Shown here piece by piece: positions 7,457 to 12,142 of a stretch of DNA of 64,000 nt; the stretch's first letter is position 1; every line of letters begins with the position of its first letter. The stretch spans positions 1,736,001-1,800,000 of the forward strand of contig NZ_OBEL01000001.1 in NCBI RefSeq assembly GCF_900215605.1. The letters run 5' to 3'. This DNA is from Cohaesibacter gelatinilyticus (GTDB lineage: Bacteria; Pseudomonadota; Alphaproteobacteria; Rhizobiales; Cohaesibacteraceae). The position numbers and the translations under genes are program-made. Under the pieces are notes generated by a model. That model was not told the DNA's origin. It worked only from the letters and a program-made list of their open reading frames with translations, and did not search any database.

Positions 7457-7813
7457 TCAGGGAACAACGATATAAAGAGAACCAAGTTTCTCATTCTTAC
7501 CTAATGCCAGCGTCTCATAAACTGATAGTTCATTGGCCCTCAGAATCAAGCGCTGAGGAATATGATCAAAACGATCCAGAAAGAAGCAATCATTATTCTC
7601 AATCGCTGCCCCCAAATTCTCAGGCGCCAATCCTGATTTCTGAATTTTCAGAGCCAGCTTTTCAGTTCGACAGGCAAAGAGATCATCTCCCTTTGCCAAC
7701 GAGCCAACAGAATAATTATCAGACGCCAATGCCGCGTATGGCAGGACACCAAGCCCTGCCAGAAAAACAAGCATACACGCACTCAATTTCAAGACTTTGG
7801 AGAGAAGCATCAT
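7457..7813 (-). CDS. Small secreted protein of unknown family, partner of cupredoxin
   Basis: A 118-residue protein with a clear signal peptide (hydrophobic about 9-29, cleavage after the ALAS region), so the mature protein of about 87 residues should be periplasmic. The mature part has two cysteines (FACRTEK and NNDCFF) that could form a disulfide, and no haem or metal motif. Its ATG overlaps the stop of the cupredoxin gene by four bases, implying translational coupling and a joint function. No family is recognised. Stretch 7222-7456 behind it holds no gene. Confidence 0.7.
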   Translation of the reverse strand: MMLLSKVLKLSACMLVFLAGLGVLPYAALASDNYSVGSLAKGDDLFACRTEKLALKIQKSGLAPENLGAAIENNDCFFLDRFDHIPQRLILRANELSVYETLALGKNEKLGSLYIVVP

Positions 7814-8274
7814 TTGGAAACAATCACCCGGCCGATCATATCATCGCTTTCCCAATGCGGACCACATAGATAGGGAAACTCACCGGTCGCAAAGTCAAAG
7901 GTCATCTCAAGCTTCTCTTCCGGGAATAGACGAGCATCTTCCTCTTTGCCTGCGTCCTTGAACCAGGTGGAATGGCTGGTGCGTTTATCGACATTTACCC
8001 AGCGAACGGTGTCACCCAGCTTCACGTCAATCACTTCGGGACAGAAAGTGTATTTGTACATCATGACAACATGCACATCTTCGTCTGACGGCTTCTTGCC
8101 ATAGAGCTTCTCATAGCGCGCTTCTGCCTTACCGCAAATCTTGGCGATCTTGGCCGGATCACGCTTGGATTCAAGGCGCATATCACTGGCATTACCACTG
8201 ATGGAATTGCCAATCAAAACAACCATTCCAGCCAATGACGCAACCATCCATTTCGAAATCATTTCAAACGTCAT
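7810..8274 (-). CDS. Secreted cupredoxin (blue-copper protein)
   Basis: About 154 residues with an N-terminal signal or anchor segment (about 9-28). The copper site can be read as His101 in RTSHSTWF, then Cys137, His140 and Met146 in the LCGPHWESDDM stretch, the type-1 order. The Cys-His spacing is usual, but five residues lie between His and Met. Two further cysteines (47, 78) are unusual for this fold. Pseudoazurins and related cupredoxins donate electrons to nitrite reductases, so with the cd1 gene nearby this is a likely periplasmic electron carrier (inference). Start ATG 8274 has GGGAG six bases upstream; a TTG two codons earlier is less likely. Confidence 0.82.
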   Translation of the reverse strand: MTFEMISKWMVASLAGMVVLIGNSISGNASDMRLESKRDPAKIAKICGKAEARYEKLYGKKPSDEDVHVVMMYKYTFCPEVIDVKLGDTVRWVNVDKRTSHSTWFKDAGKEEDARLFPEEKLEMTFDFATGEFPYLCGPHWESDDMIGRVIVSK

Positions 8275-8344
8275 GATCAACTCCCGCTATATAAGGAATA
8301 TTCGGATTGTGTCAGAACCCTAATTCCATAGTGTGCCAAAATTC

Positions 8345-8350
8345 TGTCAA
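8345..8350 (-). promoter_or_regulatory. Possible -35 box of the cupredoxin gene
   Basis: A TTGACA hexamer on the minus strand lies about 70 bases upstream of the cupredoxin start and downstream of a terminator, so the cupredoxin pair may have its own promoter. No convincing -10 hexamer is seen at 16-18 bases. Confidence 0.25.
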
Positions 8351-8370
8351 AACCTACATGCCCAGAACGC

Positions 8371-8400
8371 AAAATGGCCGGAGAAATCCCCGGCCATTTT
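8371..8400. terminator. Terminator after the NirT/EB_dh fusion gene
   Basis: An 11-pair perfect stem AAAATGGCCGG / CCGGCCATTTT with an eight-base loop lies 17 bases past the stop at 8418. The U-tract on either strand is only four, so readthrough into the cupredoxin gene is possible. Confidence 0.65.
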
Positions 8401-8417
8401 CTTGATTATCATTGAGC

Positions 8418-10250
8418 TTACTTGCCAACCACATTGATCTCAGCTTCCGGATTATCAAGCGCCAGCTTGTATTCCAGAGAGACATGATGGAAGCGAGCAT
8501 TGGTGTAATCATCATGGATCGCAAAACCAACAGTATAGGTCTTGCCGGGCTCCAATGCGATATCGCCAGGACCGGAAGCTTTCAAAGGACGCTTCAGAAC
8601 CACTGTCCAGGTGTCCCCTTCCAGCTTGCCTTCAGCCATGACGCTCTTGGCTTCATCCATCTTGCGTTCCGTAAGAATGGAGCTGTTAACACCACCAACT
8701 TTCGGAATATAACGCATCAGATCCATGAAGGCACCGTTGGCCAGCTGTCCATCCAGATCGCCCTGGTCTTTCAGCTTTTCCCAACCACCGCGTTTTTTGC
8801 CGCGACGACCTTTGACTTCAACCTTGGTCCGGGATTCGGCCAGATATTTGGTCACACCATCTTTGACATCGATCCGCTCACCCACTTCTGGGAACTTGGC
8901 AATGTCTTCACCGGCAGGAGCGTGTGGCATATAGCGGCTGTCATGGTGACAGGTAGCCCAGCAACCAGCTTGCTCTACAAGCTTGATGTCGTTACCAGCA
9001 ATCATCATGGCGACCTTGACTTCATTCTCAGGATCCATTTTGCCACCGTCGACAAATGGTACCGGATTATGAGGGCCATTTTCCCACTGCATGCGGATAT
9101 AGAGATTTTCCTTATCGTGGGTTGCCTGCAAAGTCATGTCGATATGACCACGTTTGCCTGGGATTGGAGTTTCTTCCGCCTTCTCGCCAGAGACGATCTT
9201 GGCACCCATATCCTTCAGCTCTTTGGCATGACAGGTCGTGCAGCGATCACCTGCTTTGGTCACAGGACGAGCACCACCATGGTTTTTACCATACTGGACC
9301 CACTCGAAAGAAGCCTGACCAGGGTAGAAGAGTGTCATGCTCTTCTCATCAACGGCATTCCAGTCAACGTTGCCGGCAATGCTATCACCTGATGATGGAG
9401 CGGCAGCGCTATCGCTGGATCCACCAGAAGCAGCGGCAGCAGCTTTTGCCTGTTCCTTGGCAACAGCAGCTTCAACAGCCTTGGCAATCTTGGCTTTCAT
9501 TGCGTCAGCAGCAGCTTTCTTGGCTTCTTCTTCTGCTTTGGTCTGCGCGGCCTCGATCTCTTCAATTTTCTTCAGACTAGCGAGATAGGTTTCTGGCACT
9601 TCACGAATGAAATCAGGATTTGGAGCTTCCAGAGCTTCCAGTTCTTCATCGGTCAACAGATCACGAATATTCTTATGCGCGATCCCTTTGTGACAATCGA
9701 TACAAGTCTGGCCAGTCTTGAAGGCATTCAAATGCTGTTTACGCGCACGTGGTTTCTGGAATTCAGGAGCCATGCTTTCGAAGTTATGACAGTTGCGGCA
9801 TTCGCGACTGTCAGTGTTCTTCATGGTGTTCCAGACACGCTTGGCGAGATAGAGACGTTTGGCTTCAAACTTCTCTTTAGTATTGATCGTGCCAGTGATC
9901 TTGCCCCAAACTTCCTTGGAGGCTTCTACCTTACGAACCATTTTATGGATCCAGGGATCAGGCACGTGACAGTCAGAACAGGTCGCACGCACACCGGTAC
10001 GGTTCTGATGGTGAATTGTTGGCTTATATTCTTCGTATACGTTATTCTCCATCTCATGACATGAGATGCAGAAAGTCATCGTATTGGTCGCTTCCATCGC
10101 AGTGTTGAAGCCACCCCAGAAAATAATACCGAAAACAAAGAAAATAGCGGCCCCGGTCAGCGGAACGCCGAAAATCAGGGTGCGCTTCAGCCAGGCACTC
10201 ATGCCTTTGCCTTTAGCATCTTGTGTGGTGTTTTCGGAATTGTCAGACAT
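8418..10250 (-). CDS. NapC/NirT tetrahaem cytochrome fused to an ethylbenzene-dehydrogenase-like haem domain
   Basis: A 610-residue membrane-anchored multihaem protein. Residues about 25-46 form one membrane helix; CISCH (61-65), CSDCH (91-95), CRNCH (151-155) and CIDCH (183-187) are the four haem sites of a NapC/NirT quinol dehydrogenase. A Glu/Lys then Ala-rich helical linker (about 224-292) leads to a second domain with CTTCH (337-341) and an odd C-x3-C-H site, CWATCHHD (430-437), resembling the haem domain of the ethylbenzene dehydrogenase / cytochrome c-552 group. It probably takes electrons from quinol and passes them to periplasmic partners such as cd1 or cupredoxin (inference). GGAGG precedes ATG 10250 by five bases; a GTG one codon earlier is possible. 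Confidence 0.88.
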   Translation of the reverse strand: MSDNSENTTQDAKGKGMSAWLKRTLIFGVPLTGAAIFFVFGIIFWGGFNTAMEATNTMTFCISCHEMENNVYEEYKPTIHHQNRTGVRATCSDCHVPDPWIHKMVRKVEASKEVWGKITGTINTKEKFEAKRLYLAKRVWNTMKNTDSRECRNCHNFESMAPEFQKPRARKQHLNAFKTGQTCIDCHKGIAHKNIRDLLTDEELEALEAPNPDFIREVPETYLASLKKIEEIEAAQTKAEEEAKKAAADAMKAKIAKAVEAAVAKEQAKAAAAASGGSSDSAAAPSSGDSIAGNVDWNAVDEKSMTLFYPGQASFEWVQYGKNHGGARPVTKAGDRCTTCHAKELKDMGAKIVSGEKAEETPIPGKRGHIDMTLQATHDKENLYIRMQWENGPHNPVPFVDGGKMDPENEVKVAMMIAGNDIKLVEQAGCWATCHHDSRYMPHAPAGEDIAKFPEVGERIDVKDGVTKYLAESRTKVEVKGRRGKKRGGWEKLKDQGDLDGQLANGAFMDLMRYIPKVGGVNSSILTERKMDEAKSVMAEGKLEGDTWTVVLKRPLKASGPGDIALEPGKTYTVGFAIHDDYTNARFHHVSLEYKLALDNPEAEINVVGK

Positions 10251-10378
10251 CACGTCCTCCGCGTCCTTTAGCGGTCCTTCAGGTTCAACCTTTGATCCGA
10301 AATTTGCGGGGACAGGTCTCCTGATCCTGAAAGAGCCGACGGCCCTTTTCTCATTTCAATGGAAATGAGCTGAGATAA

Positions 10379-10404
10379 AGAAGGCGGGGAAATCCCCGCC
10401 TTCT
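10379..10404 (-). terminator. Hairpin between nirS and the NirT/EB_dh gene
   Basis: A 12-pair perfect stem (AGAAGGCGGGGA and its complement) lies 19 bases past the nirS stop. The minus-strand sequence after it (TTATCTC) is only modestly U-rich, so this may be a partial terminator or an mRNA 3'-end stabiliser that sets different levels for the two genes. Confidence 0.55.
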
Positions 10405-10422
10405 CAATGGGATATGTTCAGC

Positions 10423-12066
10423 TTACGTTACGTGGTGAGCACGGTTGTAAACGTTGAACTTACCAGTTGGTGCGAAGAAGCCTTTAATGCGGGTTTTCTC
10501 TTCAAGAGTTTCCGCATCAAAAACAACGATCTCACCATTTGGCTCAAGGCTGGTAGAACGGTTCCAGATGGATACCCATACTTCAGAGCCATCAGCGTTG
10601 AACTCGGAGTGAACCACAGCATAACCAGGCTTGTCGGTCAGCTGCATTGTTTTCACGATTTCACGGGTATCTTTAGAGATAACCTGGATGGACTGTTGTA
10701 CTTCTGGATCCGGATGCTTGGTCTGATCAGCCCATACATACTTGCTCTTCGGATGGGTACGAATGAACAGGCCAGGACCGTCGGTTTCTACAGTGTAGCA
10801 GACTTTCCAAGCTTGATCTGGATGACCTTTAGGGTCGTTACCCCATACAGTGACAGTACCTTCACCAAGGTGAGTGGTGCCACCAACTGGGCCACATTCT
10901 TTATCATTCCAGTTAGCACCAGGACCCGGATGAGGCAGCTTGCCAACATCAATGGTCGCTTCATGCTTAGCTGTTTTCGCATCAACCACAACCATCTGGT
11001 TGGAAGCGTTTGCAGCAATCTGGAAGTACTGGGAAGTTGGGTCGAAGAAACCGTCATGCAGGAACTTGGAAGTATCCATCTGGGTGATTGCAAGGTTTGC
11101 AACATCATCCAGATTGACCTGCCACATCTGACCCAGCTCCTTCATGGAAACCAGAACGTCATTGGTGTTAGGCACAGCATAGATAGCAGCGACACGGGAC
11201 TCTTCAACATAGTCGCCGTCAACGTTCACACCGCGGGAAGAAACAACTTTCTTCGGCTCCATGGTTTCTGCGTCAACGATAACGAAGTGTGGAGGCCAAT
11301 AACCACCGCCAACGATGTATTTGCCATCGCCAGAAACAGCAACGTCACGAGCATCGTAAGCAACCTGAACTTCAGCTACGCGCATTTTATCAGGTGTCTG
11401 CCACAGATCGATTTTGGTCAACTTGCCATCACGACCCATGGTGTACCAGAAGCGGCCCGGATCTTTAGCTGCACCTTCCATAGTGGATTTTTCGGTGCCT
11501 TTGATCACGTGCACAGCATAACCGGTATCCAAATGAGCAACGATTTCGTGCTTGTCACCGTCAACGATAGCAACTTTACCAGCGTCACGCTCGATCACAA
11601 CGAAGAAGTTTTCCCAGTTGCGGCCATGCAGAGGCTTTGTTGGATAATCTTTAGGATCCACATAAACTTTCATGCGGTCCTTCATCAGAGTGATATCCAT
11701 CTCTGGTGGTTTCGGAGCTTCGAGCTGGATATAGGTAGCCATATCCTTGATCTGCTGCTCGGTCATGATATCGTCAAAGTTGTTCATGCCACCTTCGGTA
11801 CCGAGGGTGATGATTTTCTCAAGACGCTCTTGACCCAGCTTGCGGGTAGCTTCTGGCTCAAGGTTTTTACCGGTAGCACCTTTACGCAGAACACCATGAC
11901 AACCCGCGCAGCGCTGGAAGTAAAGAGTTTTGGAGCTTTCATATGCTTCTTTGGAAAGCTTTGGCTCTTCAGCCAGAGCAGCGCCAGGAAGCGCAAAAGA
12001 AGCAGCGAATGGAAGAGCAACAGCAGAAAGCAGAGCTGTTTTTCTCATAAATGACTTAGGGTTCAT
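10423..12066 (-). CDS. nirS: Cytochrome cd1 nitrite reductase (NirS-type)
   Basis: A 547-residue periplasmic protein with a signal peptide (about 1-32). The cytochrome c domain has CAGCH at 53-57 and a candidate Met ligand in GGMNNF (94). The eight-bladed d1 propeller keeps the proximal His in DTGYAVHV (186) and both distal active-site histidines, FLHDG (337) and TTHLGEG (399), matching His182, His327 and His369 of the Pseudomonas enzyme from memory. Nitrite reduction to NO is therefore likely. The last residues (NVYNRAHHVT) differ from the usual NVYNTQHDVY-like end. No nirF/D/L/G/H/J/E haem d1 genes lie in this window. GGGGAG precedes the ATG by about eight bases. NirN-like roles are a less likely alternative. 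Confidence 0.9.
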   Translation of the reverse strand: MNPKSFMRKTALLSAVALPFAASFALPGAALAEEPKLSKEAYESSKTLYFQRCAGCHGVLRKGATGKNLEPEATRKLGQERLEKIITLGTEGGMNNFDDIMTEQQIKDMATYIQLEAPKPPEMDITLMKDRMKVYVDPKDYPTKPLHGRNWENFFVVIERDAGKVAIVDGDKHEIVAHLDTGYAVHVIKGTEKSTMEGAAKDPGRFWYTMGRDGKLTKIDLWQTPDKMRVAEVQVAYDARDVAVSGDGKYIVGGGYWPPHFVIVDAETMEPKKVVSSRGVNVDGDYVEESRVAAIYAVPNTNDVLVSMKELGQMWQVNLDDVANLAITQMDTSKFLHDGFFDPTSQYFQIAANASNQMVVVDAKTAKHEATIDVGKLPHPGPGANWNDKECGPVGGTTHLGEGTVTVWGNDPKGHPDQAWKVCYTVETDGPGLFIRTHPKSKYVWADQTKHPDPEVQQSIQVISKDTREIVKTMQLTDKPGYAVVHSEFNADGSEVWVSIWNRSTSLEPNGEIVVFDAETLEEKTRIKGFFAPTGKFNVYNRAHHVT

Positions 12067-12098
12067 GTCGTTCTCCCCGACAAACGGACCAGGCAGAT

Positions 12099-12104
12099 TA
12101 AATA
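12099..12104 (-). promoter_or_regulatory. Candidate -10 box of nirS
   Basis: TATTTA on the minus strand, giving a start near 12092, about 26 bases upstream of the nirS ATG. This places the TTG-N8-CAA site close to -43, the class II activator position. Confidence 0.5.
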
Positions 12105-12128
12105 TTGTTCATGTTGCCCAAAGTCCCC

Positions 12129-12142
12129 TTGATGATCGTCAA
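12129..12142 (-). promoter_or_regulatory. FNR/NnrR/Dnr-type activator site upstream of nirS
   Basis: TTGATGATCGTCAA keeps the TTG-N8-CAA half-sites common to FNR, Dnr, NNR and NnrR, with one mismatch to the FNR consensus TTGAT-N4-ATCAA. It lies about 70 bases upstream of the nirS start codon. Low oxygen and/or nitric oxide control of the locus is the inference. Confidence 0.7.

Follow-up and report, generated by a model that had tools for sequence, protein, structure and literature searches.

The 64-kb stretch of the Cohaesibacter gelatinilyticus genome analysed here (contig NZ_OBEL01000001.1, positions 1,736,001 to 1,800,000; referred to as the window) carries on its minus strand the gene nirS for a cytochrome cd1 nitrite reductase, followed by a gene in which a NirT-type quinol dehydrogenase is joined to a NirB-type haem protein (NirTB), a cupredoxin gene, and a small fourth gene (Table 1). 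The locus very probably represents the nitrite reductase module of a denitrifier, in which NirTB would feed NirS with electrons from quinol and haem d1 would be provided by a distant gene cluster. The observations behind this reading are the identities of the proteins, their conserved linkage, and the presence and co-occurrence of the haem d1 genes. Open reading frames and Pfam families served to establish the gene set of the window; all four genes listed for this locus in an earlier note, which had been made from the DNA letters alone, proved to be open throughout and to have the family affiliations given there.

Table 1. Features of the nirS-nirTB-cupredoxin locus, in window coordinates
Feature	Position	Strand	Basis
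nirS, cytochrome cd1 nitrite reductase, 547 aa; CAGCH haem c motif, His186/337/379	10423..12066	-	Pfam, bit scores, alignment
Putative Fnr/Dnr-like box TTGACGATCATCAA, one mismatch to TTGAT-N4-ATCAA, about 60 bases upstream of nirS start	12129..12142	-	Motif search
nirTB fusion, 611 aa; start GTG 10253 or ATG 10250	8418..10253	-	Pfam, motifs, model
NapC/NirT domain of fusion, aa 36-195; Lys108/Glu114 invariant	9669..10148	-	PF03264 (Cytochrom_NNT), E 4.5e-72
EB_dh/NirB domain of fusion, aa 332-592	8478..9260	-	PF09459, E 2.4e-34; fold match to EBDH gamma 2ivf_C
Fifth haem motif CTTCH, aa 338-342	9228..9242	-	Cys and His invariant among relatives
Sixth haem motif CWATCH (CX3CH type), aa 431-436	8946..8963	-	CWxxCH in 77/77 relatives
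Cupredoxin, 156 aa; apparent signal peptide (by eye)	7810..8280	-	Pfam Copper-bind; copper ligands by eye
Small protein, 118 aa; apparent signal peptide (by eye); start overlaps cupredoxin stop	7457..7813	-	No family match

Pfam analysis of the protein encoded at 10423-12066 returned Cytochrom_D1 and a c-type domain. Its bit scores were 434 with P. aeruginosa NirS and 411 with NirS chains of the Paracoccus type, compared with 187 for NirN and 66 for NirF. Residues His186, His337, and His379 align with His182, His327, and His369 of P. aeruginosa NirS, so that the earlier statement of intact cd1 histidines holds; we take them to be the d1 ligand and the two catalytic histidines. An apparent signal peptide was recognized by eye. 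On these grounds the protein is a true NirS, for which nitrite reductase activity and bound d1 are predicted. The Fnr/Dnr-like box upstream of its gene is only suggestive of a regulatory site and is not significant by number, since the window shows no enrichment of the motif (55 matches with up to two mismatches versus 45.5 expected).

The gene directly downstream of nirS, the position expected for nirT, encodes a protein in which Pfam identified Cytochrom_NNT and EB_dh, in agreement with the earlier proposal of a NapC/NirT domain joined to an EB_dh-like haem domain. The protein possesses five CXXCH motifs and one CX3CH motif: four CXXCH motifs lie in the NirT half (positions 62, 92, 152, and 184), whereas the NirB half, as expected for an EB_dh domain of the NirB type (PF09459), has two haem motifs, one CXXCH and one CX3CH. 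The same complement of five plus one was present in all 13 fusions found in the order, and CWxxCH in every one of the 77 EB_dh proteins, whether fused, double, or split, among the best 80 of at least 590 relatives described below. Lys108 and Glu114 of the NirT half are invariant (13/13 order fusions and 38/38 proteins of a wider alignment) and align with a Lys/Asp pair of NrfH; presumably this pair is the quinol site.

AlphaFold was used to model the fusion from 38 rows. The model is of moderate quality (mean predicted local distance difference test value 72.1, predicted template modelling score 0.68) and does not include the haems. It features a helix comprising residues 31 to 54, a helical NirT part, a linker helix formed by residues 220 to 275, and a β-sandwich. 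The first helix is hydrophobic by eye, which together with the four CXXCH motifs gives the single N-terminal membrane helix and tetrahaem pattern of NirT, and the linker between the two halves is rich in Ala, Lys, and Glu. In a fold search, the best match of the NirB β-sandwich was the gamma subunit of ethylbenzene dehydrogenase (EBDH gamma; 2ivf_C, E 4e-10, TM-score 0.65 by target length), and NXR-C was also retrieved (7b04_C, E 4.7e-8); behind these, five more chains, of CBM9 and another carbohydrate-binding protein, passed an E value of 0.001 as β-sandwiches. Among solved structures, the sequence itself matched NrfH, weakly, and profile matches at E values up to 0.1 comprised NXR-C and EBDH gamma, each along a short stretch only, as well as five further chains, mostly BAG-domain proteins, which were taken as chance matches. 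EBDH gamma and NXR-C thus share their fold with the NirB half, but each of them binds a single haem b (PMC8387239), whereas NirB has two motifs for covalently bound haem.

The locus is a variant of a known system, nirS accompanied by NirT and NirB, with the latter two fused and the d1 genes elsewhere on the chromosome. In clade-1b Stutzerimonas, nirT and nirB are reported to be located immediately 3′ of nirS (PMC13086519), and the second locus tag after nirS in P. stutzeri RCH2, Psest_0817, is annotated as 'Ethylbenzene dehydrogenase' (PMC5554334). Like the window, the nirSTB genes of P. stutzeri thus encode NirS, a NapC/NirT tetrahaem protein, and a dihaem cytochrome of the EB_dh family (PMC8954225, PMC13086519, PMC5554334); the window differs in that NirT and NirB form one polypeptide, a cupredoxin gene follows, and the d1 genes are far off. 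Because the split relatives described below match this published arrangement, the protein encoded at 8418-10253 is assigned as NirTB, its NirB half being linked to NirB through the annotation of Psest_0817 and the split homologues. A chain leading from NirT via dihaem NirB to NirS has been proposed (PMC8954225), and a fused NirTB, tied to nitrite reduction as here, has been reported for Halomonas sp. 2A (Li et al. 2018 as cited in PMC13086519), a likeness drawn from the description in PMC13086519. Similarly, pcrQ and pcrO of perchlorate reduction islands encode a tetrahaem quinol dehydrogenase and an EBDH gamma homologue, but they are separate genes and were proposed to function in perchlorate reduction (PMC4623255). 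The idea of the fusion as a novel hybrid was therefore rejected, NirTB being in print and 22 split relatives being at hand. No published account of a fused nirTB with a cupredoxin was found in the literature searched, which is no proof of absence. The points that perhaps go beyond print are how widespread the fused form is, its association with NirS lineages, the cupredoxin as a partner, the NirT-NirB-NirB arrangement, and a single NirT-NirB-cupredoxin protein.

Conservation of the locus was analysed by searching the full-length fusion in 297 genomes of the order, 13 of which, including that of the window, possess it. Four further genomes gave weak partial EB_dh matches only, and one of the thirteen has a second weak place of this kind. 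When 17 stretches were compared (12 with the fusion and the 5 weak places), nirS was located upstream and the cupredoxin gene downstream of the fusion in 12/12 other genomes; none of the weak places had nirS alongside. A scan of named genomes with NirT peptides revealed at least 590 relatives, the best 80 of which were kept for locus comparison; as they were found by NirT peptides, proportions among them are not population frequencies. Of these, 49 were fusions with a single NirB and 6 were fusions with a double NirB, 22 had split genes, and in 3 the stretch contained no EB_dh gene; Ruegeria and Pseudovibrio are among the named marine carriers of the module. In 51 of the 55 fused or double loci, the gene immediately upstream is nirS, in some cases cut by a contig end. 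In the other four the upstream sequence is missing or interrupted, three (L073, L083, and L094) being cut off by a contig end and the fourth (L090) having a scaffold gap 50 bases upstream; wherever the sequence upstream of a fusion could be read, nirS was thus present. Given the 12 order genomes and the 51 fusions behind nirS, the grouping of nirS, the fusion, and the cupredoxin gene is beyond chance. The conserved linkage of four genes suggested earlier therefore applies to these three; the fourth gene is not conserved, as the 118-aa protein, for which a Pfam search returned no family, was found in 2/297 order genomes, i.e., the two members of the genus that have the nirS module.

Each of the 22 separate NirB frames contains one CXXCH and one CX3CH motif. 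Twelve of the 22 split loci have nirS, as do L107 and L119, in the latter case divergently oriented, whereas in eight (L109, L112-L117, and L120) nirS is missing from the stretch. In L116 the NirT-NirB pair lies behind a chlorite dismutase gene and resembles pcrQ/pcrO (PMC4623255). In L109:9944-14838, a metagenome-assembled genome (MAG) of the Sphingomonadales, the NirT and NirB genes are directly followed by those for a decahaem cytochrome and an outer-membrane porin of the MtrB/PioB type, and the pair may deliver electrons to, or draw them from, an extracellular conduit. Pairs such as L116 and L109 lend some substance to the idea that NirTB is a quinol dehydrogenase module for another acceptor and merely stands beside nirS; with nirS directly upstream of all 12 order fusions as well as of the 51 loci mentioned above, this is highly improbable. 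Two further variants were also recorded. In Aliamphritea spongicola (L111:9875-11697, one of the 22 split loci), NirT and NirB are encoded in overlapping, different frames that share the linker, possibly a fusion disrupted by a frame change, either natural or due to an assembly error. The double-NirB fusions (L060:2279-5179, L065:4091-6931, L078:9929-12760, L082:3795-6317, which is cut, L086:4347-7154, and L094:209-2959) encode NirT-NirB-NirB proteins of 916 to 966 aa where complete, with six CXXCH and two CX3CH motifs and hence eight possible haems. Their hosts are Sedimenticola, Thiodiazotropha, a Ctena symbiont, and one other gammaproteobacterium.

NirS alone was searched in the order and in 398 genomes of the phylum, and flanks were examined at 30 places each, two of which were shared. 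In the order, 37/297 genomes possess NirS, and all 13 fusion genomes are among them; in the phylum, the number is 50/398. From the loci, 112 complete NirS sequences were extracted, 106 of which were used for a tree; L121, which is cut in NirT, and five sequences scored as having no NirTB with fewer than 1000 bases downstream were left out, and L080, described below, is absent as its NirS is cut. The tree requires three changes between presence and absence of adjoining NirTB. One group of 56 rows contains 48 fused, 5 double, and 1 split locus and 2 without NirTB, a group of 19 consists of 12 split and 7 fused loci, and the remaining 31 rows have no NirTB; the five double-NirB loci with readable nirS form one group. 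NirS phylogeny thus appears to follow the presence of NirTB, in a quick tree that carries a long-branch warning and whose rows were partly picked for having NirT. In a previous study of NirS clades, the term 'nirT' does not occur in the main text (PMC10999283). The two exceptions in the group of 56, L139 and L140 (genomes G022 and G014), have a cupredoxin gene adjoining nirS, and no NirB match was obtained in their genomes at an E value of 1e-8. They represent a natural experiment on whether NirS can be served by the cupredoxin alone.

As the earlier note stated, nirS is normally clustered with the genes for haem d1 synthesis, and none of these had been noticed next to nirS in the window. This was confirmed for the entire 64 kb: queries for NirN, NirF, and a third cd1-type protein matched only nirS, and the other nir queries matched nothing. 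A genome search with PF02239 identified four places, namely the window nirS, NirF (C1:815328-816410), NirN, and a divergent third protein; the protein at C1:810457-811539 scored 505 bits with NirN and 114 with NirS. Around NirF and NirN lies a cluster of nirE, nirC, nirF, a fused nirDL, nirG/H, nirJ, nirN, and a CbiX gene, flanked by norC, norB, norQ, norD, and norE and on the other side by nosZ and nos genes. A single nirG/H gene was seen in the pieces examined, the border between two of which runs through the stretch of a possible second one. The assignments are supported by family models for NirJ (612 bits, cut-off 515), sirohaem decarboxylase chains, uroporphyrinogen methyltransferase (NirE), and Sec-type NosZ, and also for CbiX, NirF (PF02239), NorQ, and NosD, while NirC, NorC, NorB, NorD, and NorE match general domains only and were named by place and relatives. 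The cluster is located about 930 kb from the window nirS on the same contig. The search for nirF, nirJ, nirE, nirN, and norCB recommended in the earlier note accordingly led to an assignment for every one of them, and its supposition that d1 is made by genes elsewhere proved right; an absence of d1 genes from the genome, from which it would have followed that the protein does something else, was refuted. As d1, nor, and nos genes are all present about 930 kb away and no d1 gene lies in the window, the genome looks like that of a complete denitrifier whose nirS module is set apart from the rest.

The location of the d1 genes away from nirS could point to a window cd1 that is a decayed or repurposed paralogue without haem d1. 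This is extremely unlikely in view of the intact haem c motif and three histidines and the d1 genes in the genome; moreover, none of the other cd1-domain places represents a second NirS, so that a normal nirS cluster elsewhere, with the window copy as its decayed relative, was also rejected. The divergent third protein (L007:8861-10477, minus strand, corresponding to contig C2 about 738861-740477) has a haem c motif and has kept all three d1 histidines; it is close to neither NirS nor NirN, scores 172 bits with PF02239, and adjoins a gene for a regulator that looks to be of the Crp/Fnr type.

Within the genus (11 genomes, including that of the window), this nirS occurs in two, the window's and G273, and nirF in the same two and in none of the nine others; the co-occurrence of nirS with an unlinked nirF fits a single pathway. 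In G273, the d1/nor cluster (L213) has the same order and is located on a different contig from nirS. The d1 genes lie near the module in 10/12 order relatives; of the other two, L035 belongs to G273 and L040 is cut short by a contig edge. Hence, the separation of the d1 genes from nirS is characteristic of this genus. In the nine genus members without nirS, no clean empty site was found between the MgtE and DEAD-box helicase genes; in the stretches examined from them, the window's helicase gene does not adjoin MgtE.

The cupredoxin displays, by eye, the ligands of a type-1 copper site (His and Cys-x2-His-x5-Met). Among the best 80 of at least 590 relatives, 50 loci could be checked for its gene, which is located downstream of the fusion in 40; the copper loop was seen in 39 of these 40. 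In a gammaproteobacterial MAG (L080:863-3007), NirT, NirB, and the cupredoxin share a single open frame of 714 aa, which lies downstream of a cut nirS, the C-terminal domain matching Copper-bind (PF00127, E 1.6e-10); this arrangement was found in one MAG only.

For electron transfer in the module we infer the direction and order of the steps, the binding of six haems, including one at the CX3CH site, and the place of the cupredoxin as follows. Quinol would be oxidised by the membrane-anchored NirT half, the electrons would cross the four NirT haems to the two NirB haems and pass from there to NirS, either directly or via the cupredoxin, and NirS would reduce nitrite to NO with haem d1 supplied by the distant nirE-C-F-DL-G/H-J-N genes. 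The whole route would by-pass the bc1 complex. The order NirB, cupredoxin, NirS is favoured because the L080 protein joins the cupredoxin to NirTB. Because of L139 and L140, the cupredoxin could also serve NirS without NirTB, presumably with electrons from bc1. The earlier note had arrived at an alternative quinol-to-cd1 route that avoids bc1, and this is still the natural reading; with NirT, NirB, and fused NirTB in print, however, neither the route is new nor the hybrid unusual, and its account of bc1 as the normal source of electrons for NirS omits NirT.

Several points weigh against this scheme. It rests on gene grouping and sequence; the cytochrome c1 of a bc1 complex is also encoded in the genome and could serve a bc1 route; no cupredoxin is present at 9 of the 50 checkable fusion loci, from which it follows that NirTB could serve NirS without it; NirTB is dispensable at least in L139 and L140; and the same NirT-NirB pair apparently serves other acceptors elsewhere (L109, L116). 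Some of this would suit a different role, in which NirTB reductively activates cd1 and the electrons for turnover come from bc1 via the cupredoxin or a cytochrome c. Such a division of labour has a precedent in NapC of P. pantotrophus, which is able to activate cd1 reductively (Zajicek 2004 as cited in PMC13086519), and it would accommodate both the cytochrome c1 and the retention of nirS with a cupredoxin but without NirTB in L139 and L140. It is nevertheless rather unlikely, as nitrite reduction in P. stutzeri ZoBell is reported to require NirT (PMC13086519), NirTB is kept in 54 of the 56 rows of the NirS clade, many of them picked for having NirTB, and L080 joins the cupredoxin to NirTB. 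Delivery of electrons from quinol to NirS by NirTB remains the preferred reading, and the by-pass of bc1 is testable with an inhibitor.

The results indicate that the label 'ethylbenzene dehydrogenase' on a gene next to nirS stands for NirB, in many cases joined to NirT, and that the type of donor adjoining nirS tracks NirS phylogeny. If the proposed route is true, a large set of marine denitrifiers by-passes bc1 in nitrite respiration, which would change the energy yield assigned to them. A more far-reaching view, which we regard as possible but doubtful, is that an entire NirS lineage, largely marine, depends on a dedicated quinol:nitrite chain that is independent of bc1 and that its NirS has co-evolved with this donor, which would take the form of hexahaem NirTB with its own cupredoxin, of octahaem NirT-NirB-NirB in sulphur-oxidising gammaproteobacteria, and once of NirT-NirB-cupredoxin. 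In that case, the energy conserved per nitrite in this part of marine denitrification would be lower than by the textbook route.

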